A stretch of 64,000 bases of DNA from Haloferax larsenii JCM 13917 (GTDB lineage Archaea > Halobacteriota > Halobacteria > Halobacteriales > Haloferacaceae). Of this stretch, positions 27,102-38,604 are shown piece by piece (the first letter of the stretch is position 1; every line of letters starts with the position of its first letter). The position numbers were made by a program, and so were the translations under genes. A model generated the notes under the pieces. The model saw nothing but the letters and a program-made list of their open reading frames with translations, was not told the DNA's origin and did not search any database. Location: NCBI RefSeq assembly GCF_000336955.1, contig NZ_AOLI01000033.1, positions 1 to 64,000 of the forward strand, given 5' to 3'.

Positions 27102-28184
27102 TCAGATAAGGTCGTCTATCTTGTCGTTCTGCCACATCTCACTCGGGTCCTCGCGCGTCTCGTTTTCCGCCTCGTCGATGGCCTCGCGAGCGCGCTCCAT
27201 GAACGACTCGACGCGCTCGGAGCGCTCGACACCGCCCATGAGGACGAGTGCCGCGAGTCGGTCACTCTGAAGCGGGAAGTCGCCACCGCGAACCTGTAGA
27301 CTTCCGGTCTCTTCCTCGACCCACCGTCGGGCGCGCTCGACACCTTTTCGCGGAATCGAATCGGGCTTTCCGGCGACGACGACGAGCGCGGAGTCCGCGT
27401 CGCTCGCGTCCGGGAGGCTCGTCCCCGTCAGGACAGCACGGCGGACGATGCTCATCACGGCGTTGATGTTCTCTTCTGCCTTCGGTGCCGCTTCGGCGCT
27501 CGCGTAGCCGAGTGCCGCGATACCCCCGGCACGAAGGGTGTTGATAACCTCGGACGAGTCGACGACGCTCTCGCCGACACCTTCGGTCGCCTCGCCGGAG
27601 GCGAGCAGGAGGCCGACGCGACGGGCGATAGCCTCGTTTATCGCGTCGAACCCTTCGCTCATCGACTCGCCAGACGACCGGAAGGCGTCGTTGTCGACGA
27701 GGAGCACGGCGTCCGACTCACGAGCGACGGTCTTGAGCGACCGACCGGCGTTCACCTGATACATCGCGCCTTCGTCCTCGCCGGGAAGGATGCCGAGGAC
27801 GTAGACCGGGATGTCGTAGATTCGCTGGAGTTCCTTCGCGAGGACGGGCGCACCACCGGAACCGGACCCCCCACCGAGTCCGGCGACGATGAATATCGAC
27901 TCGGCTTCGGCCGTGACACGACCGTCGAGCGCCGAGAGTACTTCCGTCTTGTCCGCTTGCATGACTTCGGCACCGAGTTCGTTGTCGCCGCCGACGCCGT
28001 GGCCGTTGACACGGTCCTGTCCGATGAGGACCGTCTCGAACGGTAGTTGCGTGAGGTCTGCCTTTGCGGTGTTAACACCGACTGCACCGAGGACAGCACC
28101 GAATCCCATTCGCTCGTCGAACGACTGGAGGGCCGCCGTGAGCTTCCCACCCGCTTGGCCGAGACCAATCAGGACTGTCTTCAT
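27102..28184 (-). CDS. cetZ2: CetZ tubulin-like protein (CetZ2 type)
   Basis: A 360-residue tubulin-superfamily GTPase. CetZ proteins control cell shape and motility in Haloferax rather than division; CetZ1 is needed for rod development. Visible motifs are VLIGLGQAGGKLTAAL (start), GVNTAKADL, GGDNELGAEVM and the signature AGLGGGSGSGGAP (about 108-120). The C-terminal region ends in an acidic helix DEAENETREDPSEMWQNDKIDDLI. I call it CetZ2 from its place in the ftsZ1-cct3 neighbourhood as I remember it for H. volcanii; the paralogue number could be wrong. The ATG at 28184 is the family start. It is divergent from the pilus cluster, 195 bp apart. Confidence 0.93.
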   Translation of the reverse strand: MKTVLIGLGQAGGKLTAALQSFDERMGFGAVLGAVGVNTAKADLTQLPFETVLIGQDRVNGHGVGGDNELGAEVMQADKTEVLSALDGRVTAEAESIFIVAGLGGGSGSGGAPVLAKELQRIYDIPVYVLGILPGEDEGAMYQVNAGRSLKTVARESDAVLLVDNDAFRSSGESMSEGFDAINEAIARRVGLLLASGEATEGVGESVVDSSEVINTLRAGGIAALGYASAEAAPKAEENINAVMSIVRRAVLTGTSLPDASDADSALVVVAGKPDSIPRKGVERARRWVEEETGSLQVRGGDFPLQSDRLAALVLMGGVERSERVESFMERAREAIDEAENETREDPSEMWQNDKIDDLI

Positions 28185-28344: not shown

Positions 28345-28381
28345 AGGTTTATCCCATATGACGGGACCACCCCGGCGTATG
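28345..28381 (+). promoter_or_regulatory. Pilus-cluster promoter cassette, copy 1
   Basis: A 37-bp element ending exactly at the ATG of the coiled-coil gene. It starts AGGTT, has a TATA-like TTTAT, then ACGGGACCACCCCG and ATG. It aligns without gaps with copies at 29384 and 33181. Confidence 0.8.
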
Positions 28382-28891
28382 ACACGCACCACCGGTCACA
28401 CGACCACCGAGGACAGGAACCGAACGTCGTCGGATGCCGCGGCCGCCGACCGAACAGCAGAACTCGTCGCTCGCCTCGACGCCGTCGAACGGACACTGAC
28501 GGGGACCGACGCGCCCGTCTCGGACCTCGAAGACCTCGCTGCGGTCGAAGAACGCGTCTCGGACCTCGAATCGACCGTCGAGACGCTCACCGAGCGCATG
28601 GACGACATCGACGCTGCGACGCAGGCCATCCGCGGGTACCTCGGCGGCGTTCGCGCGGTCAACGAGTCGGTCGAGCGCCGGGCGGACGCGGCACTCGCTA
28701 AAGCCGAGTCGCTGGAAGCCGCCCTCGTCGACGAATCCGATGCCGCGCGCCAGCAATCGTCGATAGCGCAGGCGACGGCGTCTCCCGAGCCAACCGATAG
28801 TGTCGAACACGGCTCGGTCGATTCCACCGCTGGCGACGACGCGGACGCCCCGAACAGCGGTCTGGCTTCTCGCCTCCGCGACGTGCTGTGA
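28379..28891 (+). CDS. Coiled-coil protein of the pilus cluster
   Basis: A 170-residue acidic soluble protein. Residues about 25-110 form heptad-type helices (LVARLDAVERTLTGTD, VEERVSDLESTVETLTERMDDID), ending near a short GYLGGVRAVNESVERR segment. The last part is disordered. It probably assists assembly of the PilB/PilC machine. The next gene starts inside its stop (GTGA), so both are co-translated. I use the ATG at 28379, leaderless behind promoter copy 1. No enzymatic motif. I do not know a name. Confidence 0.8.
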   Translation: MTRTTGHTTTEDRNRTSSDAAAADRTAELVARLDAVERTLTGTDAPVSDLEDLAAVEERVSDLESTVETLTERMDDIDAATQAIRGYLGGVRAVNESVERRADAALAKAESLEAALVDESDAARQQSSIAQATASPEPTDSVEHGSVDSTAGDDADAPNSGLASRLRDVL

Positions 28892-29328
28892 TTCGCGTCG
28901 TCATCGCGTGTTGTCTCGCCGTGGCGATTGCGGGCGTTGCGTTCCCAGCGGCCGACGCCGCCAGAGCGGATGCGACCGCCGTCAGCGTCGGGTCGATGGC
29001 AGACACGCTCGCACAGGCGGCCACCTCGCTCGCGACGACCGAAGACCCGCCACCGGTCGGTCTCGACGGTGCTCGGAGACGTGTCGTTCTCGACGTTCCC
29101 TCTGGGTCGTGGCGGTCGGCGCGCGTCTCTCAACTCACGATTCGCGGCGGCGACGGTGTCGAACTCACGGCGACGACAGCGGGAGGCCCGACTGTCGTTC
29201 GTCGCGTCGGTGGACCACGCGTTCACGTGGTCGGCGAACGACTCTCGCTGGGTCCCGGCACGCACACGCTCGACCTCACGCTCCAGTCCGATTCGCGCGG
29301 CTCGGTCGTCGTGGTCGAACCGGCGTGA
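28888..29328 (+). CDS. Exported protein of the pilus cluster
   Basis: A 146-residue protein with a clear N-terminal signal peptide (MIRVVIACCLAVAIAGVAF, then PAADAARADA), so it is exported. The mature part is beta-rich, with segments such as LVVLDVPSGS-like RRVVLDVPSGSWRS and SQLTIRGGDG, typical of an extracellular beta-sandwich. The start is GTG, overlapping the previous stop by four bases. Likely a surface component or periplasm-side accessory of the pilus; no known domain is recognised. Confidence 0.78.
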   Translation: MIRVVIACCLAVAIAGVAFPAADAARADATAVSVGSMADTLAQAATSLATTEDPPPVGLDGARRRVVLDVPSGSWRSARVSQLTIRGGDGVELTATTAGGPTVVRRVGGPRVHVVGERLSLGPGTHTLDLTLQSDSRGSVVVVEPA

Positions 29329-29383
29329 ATCGGCGTTCACAACCCCACTGTTCGACCGTTTTCACTCTCAATTCTCCGGGCGT

Positions 29384-29420
29384 AGGTTCAAATACCCGAA
29401 CGGGACCACGCCGGTGTATG
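29384..29420 (+). promoter_or_regulatory. Pilus-cluster promoter cassette, copy 2
   Basis: AGGTTCAAATACCCGAACGG at the 5' end, then GACCACGCCGG, ending at the ATG of the PilB-type gene. Same length and phase as the other two copies. Confidence 0.8.
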
Positions 29421-31436
29421 CCTCTCGACCTCGCCGCCGCACTCGGACTCGACGACACCTCGTCGCCCGATGCAGGACGGTCTCTCTCGCGCACGGTGTC
29501 TGACTACCTCGGGGATTCACCCGTCGCGGATTCCCTTCCTGATTCGCTCGTCACTTCGGGCGACGCCGACTCGTCTCCGGCGTGCGACTGTGCGCCGACG
29601 TTTTCGACCCCGACCGACGACCTGCACGACGACGATGCGGTGCTTCTCGTCGATGCGAGCACGTGCCCGTACGGCGGGTCGCTCGCAACCTCGCCGTCGT
29701 GTCGGGCGACGGCAATCGGTGCGCTGGAGGACCGCGACGCCGATTCGGTCGTCGTCCGCCAAGGCGGCCGAGAGTGGCGGTACGACGACGCCTCGACCGC
29801 GCTCCTCGTCGCTGCCGGACGATTCGCCGAACGCGTCGGCTTTCGTGACGACCGACTGGCCGAACGCGCTCGCCGCGACCCGCTCGCCGCCGCGCACGAG
29901 GCAACCGGCCGAGCGGGACCGGTCAAGCGCGCCGCCGTCGAAACCGGCCTCACCGAGGGAGCGGCCCGCGCCGCCGACTACGACGACGCGCTCCGCGCTG
30001 TCGTCGGGCCGACGATTGCCCGCTCGCGCGTCGACCCGAAACCGCCAGCAGACGCGCGACTCGTCTCCACCAGCGAACTCGACTCGGGTGCGGTCGCCCG
30101 CCGGTACGAGGCTCCGAACGGCCCCGTTTACCACCTCGACCCGCTGGCGTCGACGCTCGATGCCGACTCGGCGCAGACGCTCGCAGACGCTCACGACGCG
30201 CTCGCACAGGGTCGCGTCGAGGCCGGTGAGCGAGCGCCCGGACGCGCGGTTCGTCTCGTCGCCGACGCCGACGACCCGGTCGACGTGCTCACGTCGATTC
30301 TGGCGAAGCACACCCACGGCCACGGCGTCCTCGACGACCTGTTTTCCGACCCGGCGGTCTCGGACGTGTACGTCTCGACGCCAGCGGACGAGAACCCGAT
30401 TCGCGTCGTCGTCGATGGCGAGTCGATGCCGACGAACGTCCGACTCGTCCCCGGCGGTGCCGAGTCGTTGGCGTCGCGCCTCCGTCGCGTGAGCGGCGCG
30501 TCGTTCTCCCGTGCGGACCCGACGCTCGACACCGTCGTCGAAGCTGGCGGGGCGACGGTCCGCGTCGCGGGCGTGACCGCACCTGCAAGTGACGGCCTCG
30601 GGTTCGCGTTCCGCAGACACGACGAGACACCGCTGACGCTCCCCGCACTGGTGGAAAACGGAACCGTCTCGGCCGACGCCGCCGCCCTCTGCTCGCTTGC
30701 TGTCGAGCGCGGTGCGTCGGTCCTCGTCGCCGGCGCACGCGGAGCGGGGAAGACGACCTTCCTCGGTTCGCTCGTCTGGGAACTGCCCGCCTCGGTTCGG
30801 ACGGTTCTCATCGAGGACACGCCCGAGCTTCCGGCGGCGGCACTTCGCGCCGCAGATAGAGACGTACAGACGCTTCGAACCGACACGACTGGCGGGCCAG
30901 AACCGACGCCGCAGGAGGCCCTCCACGCCGCGCTCAGACTGGGTGACGGTGCGCTCGCAGTTGGCGAAGTTCGCGGCGAGGAGGCGTCAGTGCTCTACGA
31001 GGCGATGCGCGTCGGCGCGAGCGCGAGCGCCGTCCTCGGGACGATTCACGGCGACGGAGCGGCCGACGTGCGCGAGCGGGTCGTTTCGGACCTCGGCGTC
31101 CCGGCTTCGTCGTTCGCCGCGACCGACCTCGTCGTCACCTGTGAACGCGCCGACGACCACCGCGTCGCCCGCATCGAGGAGGTGCGCCCGACCGACGGCG
31201 ACGCGTCGTTCGAGACGCTGTTCTCGCACGATGGGGCGTCGCTCACGCCGACCGGGTGTGTCTCGCGCGGTAACAGCGCCGCAATCGAGTCGCTCGCGCG
31301 ACCGGGCGAGTCGTACGCCGACGTGCTCGATGCAATCGACGAGCGCGCACGCCGACTCGAATCGCTCGCCGTGACGGGCAGAACGACGCCAACTGACCTC
31401 GCCGACGCCCGCGCAGGGGGTGTGTCCCGATGCTGA
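29418..31436 (+). CDS. PilB/TadA-type secretion ATPase
   Basis: A 672-residue ATPase that powers archaeal pilus assembly from the cytosolic face. The N-terminal 300 residues are a cluster-specific region with Cys-rich pieces (ACDCAPTF, TCPYGG). The GspE/TadA core begins with VLTSILAKHTHGHGVLDDLFSD; the Walker A loop is GARGAGKTTF near residue 441, the Asp box follows in RTVLIEDTPELP, Walker B in LAVGEVRGEEASVLYEAM and the His box in LGTIHGDG near residue 541. The C-terminal 80 residues are Ala/Arg/Ser-rich. The start is the ATG under promoter copy 2. Overlaps pilC by seven bases. Confidence 0.92.
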   Translation: MPLDLAAALGLDDTSSPDAGRSLSRTVSDYLGDSPVADSLPDSLVTSGDADSSPACDCAPTFSTPTDDLHDDDAVLLVDASTCPYGGSLATSPSCRATAIGALEDRDADSVVVRQGGREWRYDDASTALLVAAGRFAERVGFRDDRLAERARRDPLAAAHEATGRAGPVKRAAVETGLTEGAARAADYDDALRAVVGPTIARSRVDPKPPADARLVSTSELDSGAVARRYEAPNGPVYHLDPLASTLDADSAQTLADAHDALAQGRVEAGERAPGRAVRLVADADDPVDVLTSILAKHTHGHGVLDDLFSDPAVSDVYVSTPADENPIRVVVDGESMPTNVRLVPGGAESLASRLRRVSGASFSRADPTLDTVVEAGGATVRVAGVTAPASDGLGFAFRRHDETPLTLPALVENGTVSADAAALCSLAVERGASVLVAGARGAGKTTFLGSLVWELPASVRTVLIEDTPELPAAALRAADRDVQTLRTDTTGGPEPTPQEALHAALRLGDGALAVGEVRGEEASVLYEAMRVGASASAVLGTIHGDGAADVRERVVSDLGVPASSFAATDLVVTCERADDHRVARIEEVRPTDGDASFETLFSHDGASLTPTGCVSRGNSAAIESLARPGESYADVLDAIDERARRLESLAVTGRTTPTDLADARAGGVSRC

Positions 31437-33163
31437 ACGGGGCGACGCGAACGATGGTCAACACCGCCCTGCCAGCACTTGCACGGCTCTCGCCGGTCTC
31501 TGTCGACCCCGGCGACGAGCTAACCCAATCGCTGGCGTTTCTCACCGCCGACCTCGACGCCCAGACCGTCGTTGATGCCGGATACGGCGCGAGCGTTCCG
31601 GCCGGTCTCGTCGGCGGTCTGCTCGCGGCGCTCGTCGGCGTCCCGCCCCTGACCATCGGACTCGTCTTCCTCGCCGTAGCGATGGGTGCGACGCACGCGA
31701 TTCACACCGCTCCGGTCTGGCTCGCCAGACTCCACCGAACGCGGGCACTCGGCCGCGCGCCGGAACTCGTCGGGCGACTCGTGCTTCGGATGCGACTCGA
31801 ACCGTCTGTCGAGCGCGCGGCGGTGTTCGCCGCGAACGCTGGCGACGACGCCTTGGCGAACTCGCTGGACACGCACGTCGAACGCGCCCGCGGAACGCCG
31901 ACCAGCGGCCTCGGCGAGTTCGCCGCCGCGTGGCGCTCGTGGTTCCCCGCGCTCGACCGAGCGACCGCGCTCGTCGAAACTGCCGCGGACGTGCCTGCCG
32001 GCGAACGAGACCGAACACTCGAACGAGCCCACGAGGTCGTTCGCGTCGAGACGCGTGACCGACTCGCCACGTTCGTCGGTGAGGTTCGCGGACCGATTAC
32101 CGCCGTGTACGCGTTCGGCGTCTTGCTCCCGCTCGCACTGGTCGGGGCGCTCCCGGCGGCCCGCGTCGCTGGCGTCGGCGTCGGTGTCGCTCACGTCGTC
32201 GCGCTCTACGATATCGTCCTTCCGGTGTGTCTCTTCGCTGCTGTCGCGTGGGTACTGGTTCGCCGTCCCGTCGCGTTTGCACCGCTCTCTATCGACGCCT
32301 CGAACCCGGCGGTCGAGGATACCCGACTGCTGGCTGCTGTCGCCGGTCTCGTCGCCGGTGGGGCCGGATTCGTCGGTGCCAACGCGCTCGTCGCGCCGTG
32401 GGCCGCGCCACTCGGGGCAGTCGGACTCGCGTCGGGTGCGGCGCTCGTCGTCGGCTCCCGCCCGGTCGTCAAACTCCGCGAACGGGTTCGAGCGGTCGAA
32501 GACGGACTCTCGGACGCGATGTACCTCGTCGGCAGGGCTGTCGGTGAGGGCGAAGCCGTCGAATCGGCGCTCGCCCGCGCCGCAGAGACGACACCCGGCG
32601 CGACCGGGGACCTGCTCTCCGACGCTGTCGGCGTTCAGCGCCGACTTCGGGTTGGCGTCGTCGACTCGTTCTGCGGCGACCACGGCGTTCTCGAATCGCT
32701 GCCGAGCCCGCGTGTCGCCAGCGTCGTGACGCTCCTCGGACTCGCCGCACACGAGGGCCGACCTGCGGGTCGCGCCATCGTCTCGATGGCCGACCAACTC
32801 GACGCACTCGCCCGACTGGACGCCGAGGCTCGCCGCGAACTCGCGACCGTGACCGAGACGCTGTCGAACACGGCGTCCGTCTTCGGGCCGCTCGTTGCTG
32901 GCGCGACGGTCGCCCTCGCCGATGGCATGGCTCCGGCGCGAACGCTCGACCAGACTGCCGTCACTGCACCGCTGGCAACAGCCGACCTCGGGCTGGCGGT
33001 CGGCGTCTACGTTCTCCTCTCTGCGGTGCTTCTGACGACGCTCTCGGTCGGCGTGGCGAACGGACTGGACCGTCACCTCGTTGCGACCCGCGTCGGGCGC
33101 GCGCTCCTCTCGGCGACCGTGACGTTCCTCGCTGCGTTCGTCGCCGCAGGGACGCTGCTCTGA
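31430..33163 (+). CDS. PilC/TadC-type membrane platform (T2SS F family)
   Basis: A 577-residue inner-membrane protein of the type II secretion F/TadC fold, the platform on which the ATPase acts. Residues about 45-85 are the first membrane helices, 220-345 the central set, and 480-577 the last set, with two cytosolic F-domains between them (about 90-210 and 345-475). Each F-domain shows family motifs: ALGRAPELVGRLVLRMRLEPSVERA and GLSDAMYLVGRAVGEGEAVESAL. Start ATG overlaps the PilB end, so the two are co-translated and probably assembled together. Confidence 0.9.
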   Translation: MLNGATRTMVNTALPALARLSPVSVDPGDELTQSLAFLTADLDAQTVVDAGYGASVPAGLVGGLLAALVGVPPLTIGLVFLAVAMGATHAIHTAPVWLARLHRTRALGRAPELVGRLVLRMRLEPSVERAAVFAANAGDDALANSLDTHVERARGTPTSGLGEFAAAWRSWFPALDRATALVETAADVPAGERDRTLERAHEVVRVETRDRLATFVGEVRGPITAVYAFGVLLPLALVGALPAARVAGVGVGVAHVVALYDIVLPVCLFAAVAWVLVRRPVAFAPLSIDASNPAVEDTRLLAAVAGLVAGGAGFVGANALVAPWAAPLGAVGLASGAALVVGSRPVVKLRERVRAVEDGLSDAMYLVGRAVGEGEAVESALARAAETTPGATGDLLSDAVGVQRRLRVGVVDSFCGDHGVLESLPSPRVASVVTLLGLAAHEGRPAGRAIVSMADQLDALARLDAEARRELATVTETLSNTASVFGPLVAGATVALADGMAPARTLDQTAVTAPLATADLGLAVGVYVLLSAVLLTTLSVGVANGLDRHLVATRVGRALLSATVTFLAAFVAAGTLL

Positions 33164-33180
33164 TACCCTGCCCGGTGCTG

Positions 33181-33217
33181 AGGTTTATATACTCGAACGG
33201 GACCACCCCGTGCTATG
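33181..33217 (+). promoter_or_regulatory. Pilus-cluster promoter cassette, copy 3
   Basis: AGGTTTATATACTCGAACGG then GACCACCCCGTGCT and ATG; clear TATA (TTTATATA). Same length and phase as copies 1 and 2. Confidence 0.85.
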
Positions 33218-33775
33218 TTGGACGTTCCGTTCGAATCGATGTACACGCTGGTCGCGCTCTCGGTGGGTGCCACGCTCCTCGTCGGCGTCGTGGCAGGACT
33301 CCCGACGACGCCGGCACCGGACGCGCAGGAGGTCGCCGAGACCATCGACGACGTCGCAGTCGCCGAGTACGACGCGACGGCCGAGATTCCGCTCGGAGCG
33401 GCCGAAATTCGGCTCGGCCCGCAGCGAATCGGCCTGCGGAACGACGGCGGTGCCGCGCACGCGACACTCGCCTTCGGCCCTGTCGTCCCCACCACGTTGG
33501 ATTCGCGGCTCGGTGCTGTCGCCACGGGCGCAGCCCCGAGCGACGTCTTCGAGTCGCCAGCCGCATTCCGGGAGGCTGCTGCCGAGTCCCGCGAGGTCTC
33601 GGCCGCAACTCACGAGGCTGCGACCACAATCCGCGGCCCCGCGACTGCGACCGCAACCCGTAACTCCACGACTGCGACCCACGAACCCGGTCGCTCGTGG
33701 CGTCCTGCCCCTGAATCGCTCGTCGTCCGTCACGTCACTTGGGAGGGAGTCGATGTCACTATCGTCGCAGCGTAG
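33215..33775 (+). CDS. Membrane-anchored surface protein of the pilus cluster
   Basis: A 186-residue protein with one N-terminal membrane helix (VALSVGATLLVGVVAGL, about residues 12-28), an extracellular mostly beta segment (AEIPLGAAEIRLGPQRIGLRNDG), a Thr/Ala-rich stretch, and a short C-terminal strand. Probably a minor pilin or anchor. It overlaps the next gene by 23 bases. No named family is certain to me. Confidence 0.75.
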   Translation: MLDVPFESMYTLVALSVGATLLVGVVAGLPTTPAPDAQEVAETIDDVAVAEYDATAEIPLGAAEIRLGPQRIGLRNDGGAAHATLAFGPVVPTTLDSRLGAVATGAAPSDVFESPAAFREAAAESREVSAATHEAATTIRGPATATATRNSTTATHEPGRSWRPAPESLVVRHVTWEGVDVTIVAA

Positions 33776-34151
33776 AGGCCAGTTATCGCCGACGTCTGCG
33801 CTCGTCGGTCTCGTCGTCGTGTGTGCGGCCGTCTCGGGCTATGCGGCGGTTCTCGACCGGTCGCTTCCGACCGCCGACCGCGACCTCGCACCCTCGACGC
33901 TGACTGCTGTCGAGTCGGCCCTCGCCGACGATTCCGGCGTCGTCGAAGTCTCTCGTCTCTCGGCGGGCCTCGACGCGTGCCCAACCGGGTACTCGTGCCG
34001 TCTCGTCGTGGCGGTCGGAGACGAGCGGCGCGTCGCAGGCGCGGAGGTGCCGGAAGGGACCACCACCGACACGGCGAGTACGCAGGTGAGCGTTCGCTCC
34101 GAACCCGGCCACGTCGGCTTCGGGACGCTTCGCGTGGAGGTCTGGGCGTGA
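33753..34151 (+). CDS. Prepilin-like exported protein
   Basis: A 132-residue protein with an N-terminus that looks like a class III (prepilin-type) signal: the basic SQRRG is followed by QLSPTSALVGLVVVCAAVSGY, where PibD-type peptidases could cut after the Gly and leave the hydrophobic stem of a pilin. The rest is a compact domain with one CPTGYSC pair. The ATG is inside the preceding gene and has a strong Shine-Dalgarno GGGAGG at 33741-33746. It overlaps the next gene by four bases (GTGA). Confidence 0.78.
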   Translation: MSLSSQRRGQLSPTSALVGLVVVCAAVSGYAAVLDRSLPTADRDLAPSTLTAVESALADDSGVVEVSRLSAGLDACPTGYSCRLVVAVGDERRVAGAEVPEGTTTDTASTQVSVRSEPGHVGFGTLRVEVWA

Positions 34152-35026
34152 CCGACCTCGTCCTCGACGTGACGCTCTGTCTGCTCCTCGTGAGTGCGAG
34201 CGTCGGCGTCGTCGTCACCGCAGACGAAGGCAGCCTCACGGGGGCTGACAACGCGCTCGACGCAGACGGTATCGCAACGTCGCTGGCGACCAGCACGGCG
34301 ACGGTCTACTACGACCTCGACCCCGGCGTCGAAGCCGCGGACCCGTCGCTTCTGGAGTCGGGTGGCGTCGATGCGCGCGAACTCGACCGCACTGCACACG
34401 GTAGTCTCGCCAGCCTCCTCGCCCGAAGCACCCTGGGGACAGTCGCTATCGATGGCGTTCGACTCACTCACGCCCGCGACGACATGCGTCAGGGCGTCGC
34501 TGAACGCGTCGCTTCGGAACTCCCGGTCCGCGGTGTCAACGTCGCCGTTCGGTGGGCACCGTACCCCGGTGCGCCGGTTCGAGCGACCGACACGCTCGGC
34601 CCTCGTCCCTCCGCGGCCGCGACGGTTCACTCGGCCTCGCTTCGCGTTCCGAGTGGCTTCCCGTCAGCACGTGACGACGCGCTCGCCGCGAGCGACGACG
34701 GATTCGACGCTGTAGCGCGAGTCGTCGCGAAACGGACGGTTGCAGGTTTGTTCCCACCCGAACAGGCTCGGCTGGCGCTTCACGGCGACGAGCCGGTTTC
34801 GACGCTGATGGCTCACCGCTACGAGCGGGCGGGCACGCTTCTGAACGCGTCTGTCGAACCGGAAGTCGAGAGCGTCGAGCCTCGTGCCGCTAACGCCGAC
34901 CTCGAAGCGGCGCTCGCATCCAAACTCGCAGCCGACATGCAGGCAAACTACGAGACGCCGACTGAGGCCGCACGGGCTGTCTCGGTCGGCCACGTCGACA
35001 TCGTCGTCAGGACGTGGTCGCTGTGA
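34148..35026 (+). CDS. Large surface protein of the pilus cluster
   Basis: A 292-residue protein beginning with a hydrophobic helix VTDLVLDVTLCLLLVSASVGVVV, then an extracellular region without recognised domains. It is Ala/Asp/Arg/Thr-rich with a likely amphipathic C-terminal part. Start GTG overlaps the previous stop (GTGA), and its stop overlaps the next start, so it is co-translated with both. Probable minor pilin or assembly factor. Confidence 0.75.
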   Translation: MTDLVLDVTLCLLLVSASVGVVVTADEGSLTGADNALDADGIATSLATSTATVYYDLDPGVEAADPSLLESGGVDARELDRTAHGSLASLLARSTLGTVAIDGVRLTHARDDMRQGVAERVASELPVRGVNVAVRWAPYPGAPVRATDTLGPRPSAAATVHSASLRVPSGFPSARDDALAASDDGFDAVARVVAKRTVAGLFPPEQARLALHGDEPVSTLMAHRYERAGTLLNASVEPEVESVEPRAANADLEAALASKLAADMQANYETPTEAARAVSVGHVDIVVRTWSL

Positions 35027-38000
35027 GACTCGCAGACGACAACCGGGGACGCGTCCCCTTCGCGCTCCTCGGTATCCTCTTGCTCGTCGCCAGCGCGACG
35101 TTCTCCGGCGCGCTCTCGACCCACAACCCGGTTGCTGACCGCCGCGTCGACGAGGCAGTCGAGACGGTCACTGCCGAGACGAATACCGCAGTTCGCACAG
35201 CGGTTCACGACGCCGCGCGTGAGGCGGCCGCGAATCCGGTCACGAAACGGTCGAATACGACCGTCGGTCGGGTCCTCTCGGCGAACGACACGTTCCGCGA
35301 TTATCTCCGACTCCGAATCGCACTCGCTGCGTCCGAGCGCCTGCACACGACGACCGTCCGACGTGGCGGCGTGTGTGCGACCGCGTCGCTTCCGCCGACG
35401 CCGAACGAATCTGCGCTTCGGGCGGCGCTCGACCGCGTCGCAATCGAGGAACGAGAAAACGGGACGCTGCTCGTCGTCACTGTCGAGAACGTCTCGGTCG
35501 ATGCGTGGCGCGACGGTCGCCACGTGGTCGACGACACGATAACGACGACCGTCGGCGTCCAGACGCCGGTACTCGCGCTCCACGACCGAACCGAACGGTT
35601 CGAACATCGTCTCGACGCGGGCATCACTGACGGTGGAACCATGGACGCGACGGTCACGACCGCGCTCTGGGCCTCCGCGTGGACCCGTGGCTGGGGACAG
35701 TACGCGGGCGCACCAATCGACAACGTCGTCACGAACGACCACGCCGCGCTGGCAGCGAACGCAGGCGTCCTCCTCGCCGAGCAGCAGGCTTTCGGCGCGA
35801 CCGACCGCGACGCGACTGGCGCACTCGGCCGAGCGGCCGTCAAGACCGGCGCGCGCGACCTCCTGACACTGACCGGCTCCCCCGCTGCGCCCGAGTTGGC
35901 CAACGCGCTTCCCGCGCCGAACCCGTCTGAAAACTCGGACGCTCCGACGCCGACCGACCCGGAGAACCGCACCATCAACTCGTCTGTCGGACCGGCCGCA
36001 GACCACGCGCTCGTCGCGCTCCTCGACGGCGACGAATCCGGTGGCGAGGACGGCGACCATGCAGAATCGTTCGACGGTGTCGTCACCGATGCCTACCGGG
36101 CGGACGCCGCAGTCGTCGCGGAGCGAACAGTCGAGCAAACGACTACCCAGATGACTCGGCCGGGCGACGGGTGGGAACTCGTCGGCACGGAGACCGAGTC
36201 GAACACGACGGTCACGTCGCTGCCGACCCGGACGCCGGACACGCACGTGGAAACTGTCGTCGTCGATTCCGCCTCCCGGCTGGTCACGACGACCGAGACG
36301 ACGACGCGAACGTGGCGTCGCGGAAACGACACGCTCTCGTCGCAAGCGCGGTCGACCACCGAAACTCGCGTCGACCTCGCTGTCGTCGTCGACCCGCGAA
36401 GCGTGCCCGGACCGAACCGCGACATCTCTCCCGCACTCTCCCGCGGGGGCGCACTGAATGGTCCGAACTACGAGTCGGTGGCGGATGTCGCCGCCGACAC
36501 GCTGGAGACGAGTGGCGGCTTCGACGGTCTCGCACGCGACGTGGCTGCCGGTGACGCGCCCACCCCGGATTCTGTCGCCGTAACTCGTCCATCGAAGCTC
36601 GACACGTGGCTTCGCGGAGACCTGCTCGACCTTCACGAGCGCGTCCGCAACCGGACCGTGACCGTCTCGGCGCAGTCGCTCGCGGCGGGTGAATCCAACC
36701 CTGCGGCCGAACTCGCGGCCGACATTCGAGCGGACAGAGACGAACTTCTCGACGCACCGACCACCTACGACGGCGTCGCCGACCGCGCCCGCGTCGCAGT
36801 CCGTGCGGCCTACCTCGACCGCGTCCTCACCGAACTCGACCGCCGCGCGAACCGAACCGCCGACGCGACCGGTGCCGCAGACGATGCGTCGCAGGATTCG
36901 AACGTCGGGTCGCTCTCTGCGGCCGTCGCCGCGAAACGAGCAGCAGGCGACACGCTCGGGTCCGCAAATTCGACCCAGTCGGCCGACGGCGTTCGGTACG
37001 TCCCCGATGCCGACCCGATGTATCTCTCGCTCGACGGCCGCACCGGTTCGTCGCTCCCGGCTGTCGATTCGGCGGGGACCTACCACCCGCTCGTCGCCCG
37101 CAACACCAACCTGTTCACGCTTCCCTACGGCGACGCGACCGACACGGTCCTCGAACCCGTGTTCGGTGCGAGCCGCCGGGTCCCACTCCGAGTCGCGGCG
37201 CGGACACTTCTCGCCGCGGACGCGACGCTCGCTGCGTCGAACGCCTCGAACGAGAGTCTCGAAGCTAGACGGGACCGCCTCGAAGCCCGCCACACCCACC
37301 TCGAAGCGGCTGTCACCCGAGCGATGCGGCCCCCTACGACCGCGGCCGCAACGACGCTCGCCGAACACACCGACCTCTCGAACGCCGAGCGTCGGCGCGT
37401 CCTTCGAACCGCACTCGGTCGCTGGGAGCGTCCGGGCCACCGCGCGCTCGCCGTCACGAACGGGTCGGCGTCACGGGCGATTGCTGTCGAAGCCGCGGGC
37501 GCGGGAACCACGGAGGCCGACCTCCTCGAACTCCGTCTCGACGAGGCATTCCGGACCGCCCGCAAGCAGACGGGAGCGACGGTCCCGCAGCGACTCACGA
37601 ACCGGACTGTCCACACGACTCGGTCGGTTCGCGAAGACGCAGTCGCGACCGTTGCGACAGACGCCGCGATGGGTGCAACTGAAAAGGCAGTGTCGAAGCG
37701 GGTGAACAAGACGCTCTCGTCCCGGCTCGGCAAGAACTTCCGGCGCGTTCCCGCTGGATTCCCGGTCGCACCCGTGCCGGGCTACTGGTACGCGACGGTC
37801 AACGTGTGGGACGTCGAACTCGCGGGCGAGTTCGCGCAGTTCCGTGTCCACGCTCGCGGTGACACGGAGTCGCTGACCTACGCCCGCGATGGGTCTTCCG
37901 TGGCACTCGACTGGGACGGCGACGGGACCAGCGAAGACGTTGGACGCGGTGAGCGCGTCAACTTCACTGTCGAGACGGCCATCGTCGTCGCAGTCCCGCC

Positions 38001-38106
38001 GTCGGGAATCGGCGTCGGCGACATCGACGGCGACGCCGACGAACGTTCCGCTGGCTGGGCTGGCGGACCCGGCTGTACCGCCGTCGGGGACTGTCGGCAG
38101 TCCTGA
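35023..38106 (+). CDS. Very large prepilin-like surface protein (1,027 residues)
   Basis: The last and by far the largest pilus-cluster gene. The N-terminus is LADDNRGRVPFALLGILLLVASATFSGAL: a charged stretch ending in RG followed by a long hydrophobic helix, like a class III prepilin signal. The rest is extracellular, rich in Thr, Asp, Ala and Arg, with many N-x-T/S sequons (for example NTT, NGT, NDT) for N-glycosylation, and repeated helical stretches; the end is GPGCTAVGDCRQS. It may be a tip adhesin or a giant pseudopilin. The GTG at 35023 overlaps the previous stop as in the other junctions; a GTG at 35014 is also in frame. I cannot name the family. Confidence 0.82.
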   Translation: MRLADDNRGRVPFALLGILLLVASATFSGALSTHNPVADRRVDEAVETVTAETNTAVRTAVHDAAREAAANPVTKRSNTTVGRVLSANDTFRDYLRLRIALAASERLHTTTVRRGGVCATASLPPTPNESALRAALDRVAIEERENGTLLVVTVENVSVDAWRDGRHVVDDTITTTVGVQTPVLALHDRTERFEHRLDAGITDGGTMDATVTTALWASAWTRGWGQYAGAPIDNVVTNDHAALAANAGVLLAEQQAFGATDRDATGALGRAAVKTGARDLLTLTGSPAAPELANALPAPNPSENSDAPTPTDPENRTINSSVGPAADHALVALLDGDESGGEDGDHAESFDGVVTDAYRADAAVVAERTVEQTTTQMTRPGDGWELVGTETESNTTVTSLPTRTPDTHVETVVVDSASRLVTTTETTTRTWRRGNDTLSSQARSTTETRVDLAVVVDPRSVPGPNRDISPALSRGGALNGPNYESVADVAADTLETSGGFDGLARDVAAGDAPTPDSVAVTRPSKLDTWLRGDLLDLHERVRNRTVTVSAQSLAAGESNPAAELAADIRADRDELLDAPTTYDGVADRARVAVRAAYLDRVLTELDRRANRTADATGAADDASQDSNVGSLSAAVAAKRAAGDTLGSANSTQSADGVRYVPDADPMYLSLDGRTGSSLPAVDSAGTYHPLVARNTNLFTLPYGDATDTVLEPVFGASRRVPLRVAARTLLAADATLAASNASNESLEARRDRLEARHTHLEAAVTRAMRPPTTAAATTLAEHTDLSNAERRRVLRTALGRWERPGHRALAVTNGSASRAIAVEAAGAGTTEADLLELRLDEAFRTARKQTGATVPQRLTNRTVHTTRSVREDAVATVATDAAMGATEKAVSKRVNKTLSSRLGKNFRRVPAGFPVAPVPGYWYATVNVWDVELAGEFAQFRVHARGDTESLTYARDGSSVALDWDGDGTSEDVGRGERVNFTVETAIVVAVPPSGIGVGDIDGDADERSAGWAGGPGCTAVGDCRQS

Positions 38107-38184: not shown

Positions 38185-38604
38185 ATGTTGTACGACGCCG
38201 TGGAGCAACCCGGTGCAGTCTCGGCCGACGAGCTTCGAGCCGCGTACGAAGACGAACTTCGCGCGGCGGTCGAGACGGTTGGCGCTGACGCGGCCGCAGC
38301 GGCGGCTGACGTCTCCGAACAGGCACTCTCCAACGGGATGTTGGAACTGACGCTCGAACAGGCAGCCGAGATTCTCGCACTGACCGACGAGAACCCGGAC
38401 GCCGACGCCATCGTCTGGGAGTTCCGAGACCACCTTCTCATGGGGATGACGACGGGTATTCTCGACGTAGACAGCCTCGCGTCCGCGGTCGACCTCGACC
38501 TCAACGGACAGGAGGTTCAACAGGCAATCGAGGGCCGAACGTCCGTCACGCTGAACGAACTGGCTGCCATCCACCACGCTATCGCCGTCCGTAACGAGCG
38601 ATGA
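38185..38604 (+). CDS. DUF5791-like acidic protein
   Basis: A 139-residue cytosolic acidic protein, all-helical. Motifs SADELRAAYEDELRAAVE, LTLEQAAEILALTDENPDADAIVWEFRDHLLMGMTTGILDVDSLA (split here) and NGQEVQQAIEGRTSVTLNELAAI recall the haloarchaeal DUF5791 family. Function unknown. It ends with ATGA, in which the next gene begins, so the epimerase is translationally coupled to it. Confidence 0.8.
   Translation: MLYDAVEQPGAVSADELRAAYEDELRAAVETVGADAAAAAADVSEQALSNGMLELTLEQAAEILALTDENPDADAIVWEFRDHLLMGMTTGILDVDSLASAVDLDLNGQEVQQAIEGRTSVTLNELAAIHHAIAVRNER

Follow-up and report, generated by a model that had tools for sequence, protein, structure and literature searches.

The pilus of halobacterial subclade 4F was described by Makarova, Koonin and Albers in 2016 as having an ATPase with a Cys-rich N-terminal domain, a coiled-coil gene and a neighbour of the FtsZ family (PMC4858521), and Brown and Duggin reported in 2023 that the pilB2/C2 cluster adjoins cetZ2 in Haloferacales and Halobacteriales (PMC9856176). 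Here we report the analysis of a cluster of eight genes at positions 28379-38106 of a 64,000-nucleotide (nt) window of Haloferax larsenii JCM 13917 (contig NZ_AOLI01000033.1, positions 1 to 64,000). Judged by published gene content, this is the PilB2/PilC2 pilus of subclade 4F beside cetZ2: it shares with the first account the Cys-bearing N-terminal ATPase domain, a putative PilC/TadC protein, a coiled-coil partner (DUF7310) and CetZ as FtsZ-family neighbour, and with the second the same genes in the same neighbourhood, including arCOG04674 and an epimerase. The cluster itself is not new; what is new here is a promoter element shared by its transcription units, together with the set of genes that carry it, and we found no earlier report of this element or regulon in the literature searched. 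The part of PMC4858521 consulted describes neither a shared promoter element nor an unlinked gene set. Whereas Brown and Duggin concluded that the pilus had been acquired recently as a mobile element and is rare in Natrialbales, we find deletion scars as well as a divergent but complete copy in Natrialbaceae, and in our analysis cetZ2 stands outside the shared-promoter set.

Natural transformation of Methanococcus maripaludis requires a type IV-like pilus, a MinD/ParA-like ATPase, a TctA-like protein, an OB-fold membrane protein and a surface thermonuclease, and in the lack of ComEC homologues the TctA-like protein has been proposed as the DNA transporter (PMC10133366). Three of these five kinds (the pilus, the MinD/ParA-like ATPase and the TctA-like protein) recur in the haloarchaeal set, along with a putative surface nuclease of another family; the haloarchaeal TctA-family protein is likened to MMJJ_13030 by a PF01970 family match. 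HerA-like and NucS-like members set the putative haloarchaeal system apart from it. The Ups/Ced system of Sulfolobales likewise brings together a type IV pilus, a HerA/VirB4-type ATPase and repair genes; a counterpart of UpsX or CedA was not seen in our set, none having been searched for. DNA import in archaea proceeds by an unknown mechanism, ComEC homologues not being identifiable, and no machinery has been assigned to uptake in haloarchaea: naked plasmid enters Haloferax mediterranei by an unknown route (PMC6759562), and Haloferax volcanii feeds on external DNA whose import is equally unknown (PMC3929857). The element links an orphan pilus with relatives of the methanogen transformation genes, which yields a concrete gene list in tractable Haloferax strains, and it leads us to revise two published ideas, namely the recent arrival of the pilus by mobile acquisition and the role of CetZ2 as its chief partner.

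The shared promoter element

The element, TTYA-N10-CG[G/C]G[A/G]CCA with its core about 16 nt before the ATG, heads each of the three transcription units of the cluster. It was first noticed in the promoter left at a deletion scar in another genome (G012), which resembled those before PilB and DUF7283. On the plus strand of the window, the copy before DUF7310 (28348..28373) consists of a TATA-like TTTA followed by GACGGGACCACCCC and is conserved in orthologues; the copy before PilB (29387..29412), likewise present in orthologues, reads TTCAAATA and then AACGGGACCACGCC; and the copy before DUF7283 (33184..33209) reads TTTATATA and then AACGGGACCACCCC. Sites resembling AACGGGACCACCCC end 5 nt upstream of the start codons of DUF7310, PilB and DUF7283, as automatically assigned, and the 13-mer ACGGGACCACCCC has two copies in the genome, both within the cluster. 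Among DUF7283 orthologues the element is perfect in 49/76 and has at most one mismatch in 72/76. In orthologues the core again sits about 16 nt ahead of just these three genes, and is absent before PilC, DUF7311, DUF7285, DUF7284, DUF7286, CetZ, DUF5791 and the epimerase.

Measured from the start of the TATA box, the core lies 14 nt away in 74 of 87 sites, whereas its distance to the ATG varies by one, a pattern which favours a transcriptional rather than a translational element as far as sequence can indicate. A scan for bacterial promoters and terminators was uninformative. At five loci (L320, L324, L326, L328 and L332) a two-codon open reading frame (GTG-ACC-TGA, ATG-CGC-TGA or GTG-CGT-TGA) occupies the usual position of the start codon and is followed by a GC-rich leader; at L328 a long, apparently NreA-like reading frame begins about 145 nt past the element. 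Attenuation is a possible explanation of this arrangement.

Element-bearing genes outside the cluster

The pattern TTYA-N10-CGGGACCA has seven exact sites in the 3.7 Mb genome, three in the cluster and four placed 16-20 nt before the start codons of other genes: a MinD/ParA-like ATPase, a protein with a NucS-N domain and a zinc ribbon, a HerA-like ATPase (with HerA_C and DUF87 matches) and a DUF4013 membrane protein. Across 15 Haloferax genomes there are 77 sites, compared with three for the reversed pattern, and the recurrent targets are the MinD-like, NucS-like, HerA-like and DUF4013 genes and a lipoprotein, with a TctA-family protein in genome G304. A wider scan with the core CG[GC]G[AG]CCA in seven genomes drawn from several families adds a TctA-family transporter (PF01970, 9.1e-56), a surface protein of the PLD family, a pilin-like gene of DUF7382 type that diverges from HerA, a second MinD operon (with DUF7857), a helicase resembling XPD/DinG, a nuclease of DUF83/Cas4-like type and an Mre11-Rad50 operon; PyrE-like, AIM24-like, NreA-like and RPA-like genes are also among the targets in the genomes checked. 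The pilin-like DUF7382/Ig-like protein (stem RAIEGLPIRLV; L286 on the minus strand, L327 and L335) is encoded by a gene that diverges from the HerA-like one and has a separate copy of the element, and is a candidate pilus subunit.

Since these targets had been found by the motif itself, we repeated the search out of sample, on genomes outside the discovery set, the control being the identical procedure run at 18 other offsets. Perfect cores were found before 11/21 TctA, 14/22 NucS-like, 10/23 MinD-like, 7/20 PLD and 4/20 HerA-like genes, in total 46/106 against 2.2 expected, or 71 against 4.4 when up to one mismatch is allowed (17/21 for TctA). No perfect core lay upstream of any of 569 control genes, and the aligned consensus is nearly identical for linked and unlinked sites.

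A separate line of evidence comes from genomes in which genes that are scattered in Haloferax are neighbours of the pilus, which supports the grouping made by motif. Three of these (G005, G025 and G052) are placed in Natrialbaceae by their grouping (f4) and gene content, and a fourth, G058, belongs to another group (f3). In G052 the order is pilin-like gene, HerA-like gene, DUF7310, DUF7311, PilB, PilC, DUF7283, DUF7284, DUF7286, lipoprotein, MinD and second MinD. In G005 a MinD gene, membrane proteins, a second MinD gene, the pilin-like gene (minus strand) and the HerA-like gene precede the run from DUF7310 onward to DUF7286. In G025 both MinD genes adjoin DUF7286, and in G058 HerA adjoins a DUF7310-like gene, with MinD nearby.

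Proposed function and alternative explanations

We regard it as evenly balanced whether the cluster encodes the type IV pilus of a haloarchaeal regulon for DNA uptake (competence) and recombination, a function favoured here because gene kinds of methanogen transformation are among the targets and haloarchaea take up DNA by an unknown route. With confidence a little short of even, we propose that the element defines an unrecognised competence regulon, in which the PilB2/C2-DUF7286 pilus would be the DNA-capture filament, and the TctA-, HerA- and MinD-like proteins and the nucleases would form import and processing machinery in place of ComEC-type systems. A common regulator, as the sequence suggests, would switch on all element-bearing genes together; DUF7285, DUF7284 and the pilin-like protein of DUF7382 type would be built into a pilus by PilB2/PilC2, and DUF7286, large, uncleaved and anchored, would sit at its base or tip. 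The pilus would capture external DNA, which surface nucleases would trim and the TctA-like protein (or another channel) would pass inwards; HerA- and MinD-like ATPases would act inside, and Mre11-Rad50 and other repair proteins would recombine the imported DNA. Three of the five H. volcanii pilBC operons are silent in standard arrays (PMC4371748), which is consistent with conditional expression, the relevant passage of that paper not stating which three. Several observations weigh against DNA uptake. The putative nuclease is of the PLD family instead of a thermonuclease, and no OB-fold protein with a single transmembrane segment (MMJJ_13020 type) appears among the targets, no dedicated search for one having been made. 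The HerA-like gene has the weakest conservation of the element, and the Mre11-Rad50, helicase, NreA-like and RPA-like targets would fit a general DNA-repair regulon equally well. The TctA and PLD genes occur in 30/30 genomes tested, including one that has lost the pilus, so that they also have a role apart from it; as the TctA and nuclease genes persist where the pilus has been lost, the regulon is wider than the pilus.

Next in rank after a DNA-uptake pilus, although we think it fairly unlikely, is a pilus of a DNA-damage regulon that gathers cells for chromosomal exchange or recombination repair, like the Ups pili and Ced (ATPase CedB) of Sulfolobales (PMC11868833, PMC6759562). Besides that precedent, the element before Mre11-Rad50, helicase, HerA-like, NreA-like and RPA-like genes in the genomes checked speaks for such a regulon; however, deletion of pibD leaves the conjugation rate of H. 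volcanii unaffected (PMC4187195), so that processed pilins are not needed for mating, and TctA and surface PLD proteins are better suited to the uptake of free DNA. Less probable still is that the element marks a haloarchaeal promoter class or the site of a global regulator, the pilus and DNA genes sharing timing but not a pathway. The presence of PyrE-like, lipoprotein, DUF4013 and AIM24-like genes among the targets, and the persistence of targets in genomes without the pilus, would suit this explanation; yet the scarcity of sites in the H. larsenii genome and their absence from the control genes speak against it, and a generic promoter class does not predict that the HerA-, MinD- and pilin-like targets should be joined to the pilus genes in Natrialbaceae.

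Two other explanations appear to us very improbable, and to a similar degree. One is a pilus for adhesion, biofilm formation or cell shape in which CetZ2 would serve as a scaffold or a partner in positioning, a suggestion made in PMC9856176. The divergent cetZ2 gene is indeed conserved, and its loss alters cell length early in biofilm formation (PMC10606840), but the shared element was found upstream of 0/51 cetZ2 orthologues, about 15 of the 66 loci retaining DUF7310 lack a cetZ neighbour (in Haloarcula, Natronomonas, Halomarina and others), a Natrialbaceae genome holds the full pilus set without an adjoining cetZ, and cetZ2 remains where the pilus has been deleted. On account of the first three of these observations CetZ2 is a neighbour and the loosest part of the association, not a core part; the stronger links of the pilus are with unlinked DNA-handling genes. 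The other is that, in place of a filament, DUF7286 forms the centre of a pseudopilus or bindosome-like surface complex, a proposal which accommodates the size and conservation of that protein, its want of a standard cleavage site and the absence of a typical major pilin from the cluster, and for which the bindosome offers a precedent (PMC4187195); against it, the DUF7382 pilin-like gene shares the element and adjoins HerA and the cluster in Natrialbaceae, and the model of DUF7286 showed no recognisable binding-protein domain.

Organisation and products of the cluster

All eight genes listed in a preliminary description of the window are present as described, on the plus strand, in three units (DUF7310-7311, PilB2-PilC2 and DUF7283-7285-7284-7286) within which neighbours overlap by 4-23 nt, the sole gaps being 29329-29417 before PilB and 33164-33214 before DUF7283. 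Gene order is the same in nearly all of 80 haloarchaeal loci from named genomes, which excludes a chance arrangement: DUF7283-DUF7285-DUF7284-DUF7286 is nearly invariant, DUF7310-DUF7311-PilB-PilC usually precedes it, and DUF5791 and the epimerase usually lie downstream. The closest named locus is that of Haloferax elongans, with 94% identity over DUF7286.

The first unit encodes the coiled-coil protein DUF7310 (28379..28891; Pfam, 3e-29), probably arCOG07564 of the subclade 4F pilus, and the exported protein DUF7311 (28888..29328; Pfam, 1.2e-34). In the second, the PilB2 assembly ATPase (29418..31436; T2SSE, 1e-16) has 672 residues with the ATPase domain at 314-577, and its solved relatives are 2oap (GspE-type), CpaF and FlaI; the Cys-bearing N-terminal extension noted earlier is borne out by the retention of all four Cys in the 65/65 orthologues that can be aligned there. 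The PilC2-like platform protein (31430..33163) matched no Pfam family, and is tentatively identified by its position and its conserved place beside PilB. The third unit comprises DUF7283, a membrane-anchored surface protein (33215..33775; Pfam, 2.4e-45), the small pilin-like DUF7285 (33753..34151; Pfam, 2.5e-26), the pilin-like surface protein DUF7284 (34148..35026; Pfam, 2.3e-90) and DUF7286, a surface protein of 1,027 residues with an N-terminal anchor (35023..38106; Pfam, 1017.7 bits). Beyond the cluster, DUF5791 (38185..38604, plus strand; Pfam, 1.1e-41) is probably arCOG04674, for which a role as transcription factor has been predicted (PMC9856176), and is no more than a candidate regulator of the element-bearing genes.

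Class III signals were assessed with the published FlaFind motif [KRDE][GA][ALIFQMVED][ILMVTAS], as quoted in PMC4307647. Of the two class III-like prepilin signals claimed in the preliminary description, that of DUF7285 (SQRRG/QLSP) is upheld by matches in 70/78 orthologues, and that of DUF7286 (DDNRG/RVPF) fails at a conserved Arg in position +1. DUF7284 matches the motif in part and DUF7283 in 0/76 orthologues. The model of DUF7285 has an N-terminal helix and four strands (predicted local distance difference test score, pLDDT, 89.6); no pilin was among the PDB matches listed, which were mainly of a ribosomal S3-like alpha/beta arrangement (Z of 8 or less).

In DUF7286 the N-terminus reads R[GA]RVPFAL(V/L)G and leads into a hydrophobic stem. 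No orthologue has the FlaFind motif at this conserved site (two of 77 are flagged, both away from it), so we rejected an ordinary giant prepilin, and the failure of the motif leads us to infer an uncleaved signal-anchor. An AlphaFold model built with 54 sequences (pLDDT 79.7; predicted template modelling score 0.54) contains a short helix at the N-terminus, separated by a break from the helix after it, a beta region of long strands, helical regions and, at the C-terminus, a small beta domain. Sequence and structure searches (Foldseek, VIA) with the whole protein, single domains not being queried alone, gave no convincing solved match; a likeness of the beta part to SecB and of the helical part to acyl-CoA dehydrogenase, at Z 6-7, was rejected as noise. 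DUF7286 is a conserved Pfam family present in 299/391 Halobacteria genomes. Divergent copies, often of 1,340-1,450 residues, occur in other Halobacteriota, and one such locus outside Halobacteria (L105) retains the order DUF7285-7284-7286. In genome G551 (L102:1-4400) three small proteins have their main match in the C-terminal domain of DUF7286, and a protein of about 200 residues with a PGF-CTERM-like tail follows each of them; the C-terminal domain seems to occur as a module in its own right.

The cetZ2 neighbour and history of the locus

The cetZ2-like tubulin-family gene (27102..28184, minus strand; CetZ_C, 1.4e-66; Tubulin, 5.6e-26), whose start was re-read from the MKTVLIGLGQAGG motif, is divergent from the cluster, and this neighbourhood is conserved in Haloferacales and Halobacteriales, so that lack of such conservation, which the preliminary description named as grounds for refutation, does not apply. 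The original suggestion of a pilus or secretion cluster beside cetZ2 therefore stands with respect to a type IV pilus-type cluster in conserved synteny, and is amended with respect to its large protein, which lacks a standard class III signal.

Two genomes bear deletion scars between cetZ2 and DUF5791. In G012 (L109:8533-9321) an in-frame fusion joins the beginning of DUF7310 to the C-terminal part of DUF7286 and the promoter element is retained, and in Haloferax G304 (L180:929-2099) the element, a degenerate DUF7310 start and approximately the last 15 residues of DUF7286 are left. Trees of the cluster and of its flanking genes have 27 supported splits in common and five in conflict. With these shared splits and the scars, recent acquisition is not favoured; the two deletions and the breadth of the locus suggest instead an old locus with repeated losses, some transfer being possible. 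In Halorussus and a relative (L086, L088 and L095) the cluster is split into CetZ-DUF7310, PilB-PilC and DUF7283-7286 modules, rearranged mostly within about 20 kb, with PilB and PilC lying outside the examined stretch in L086 and L088.

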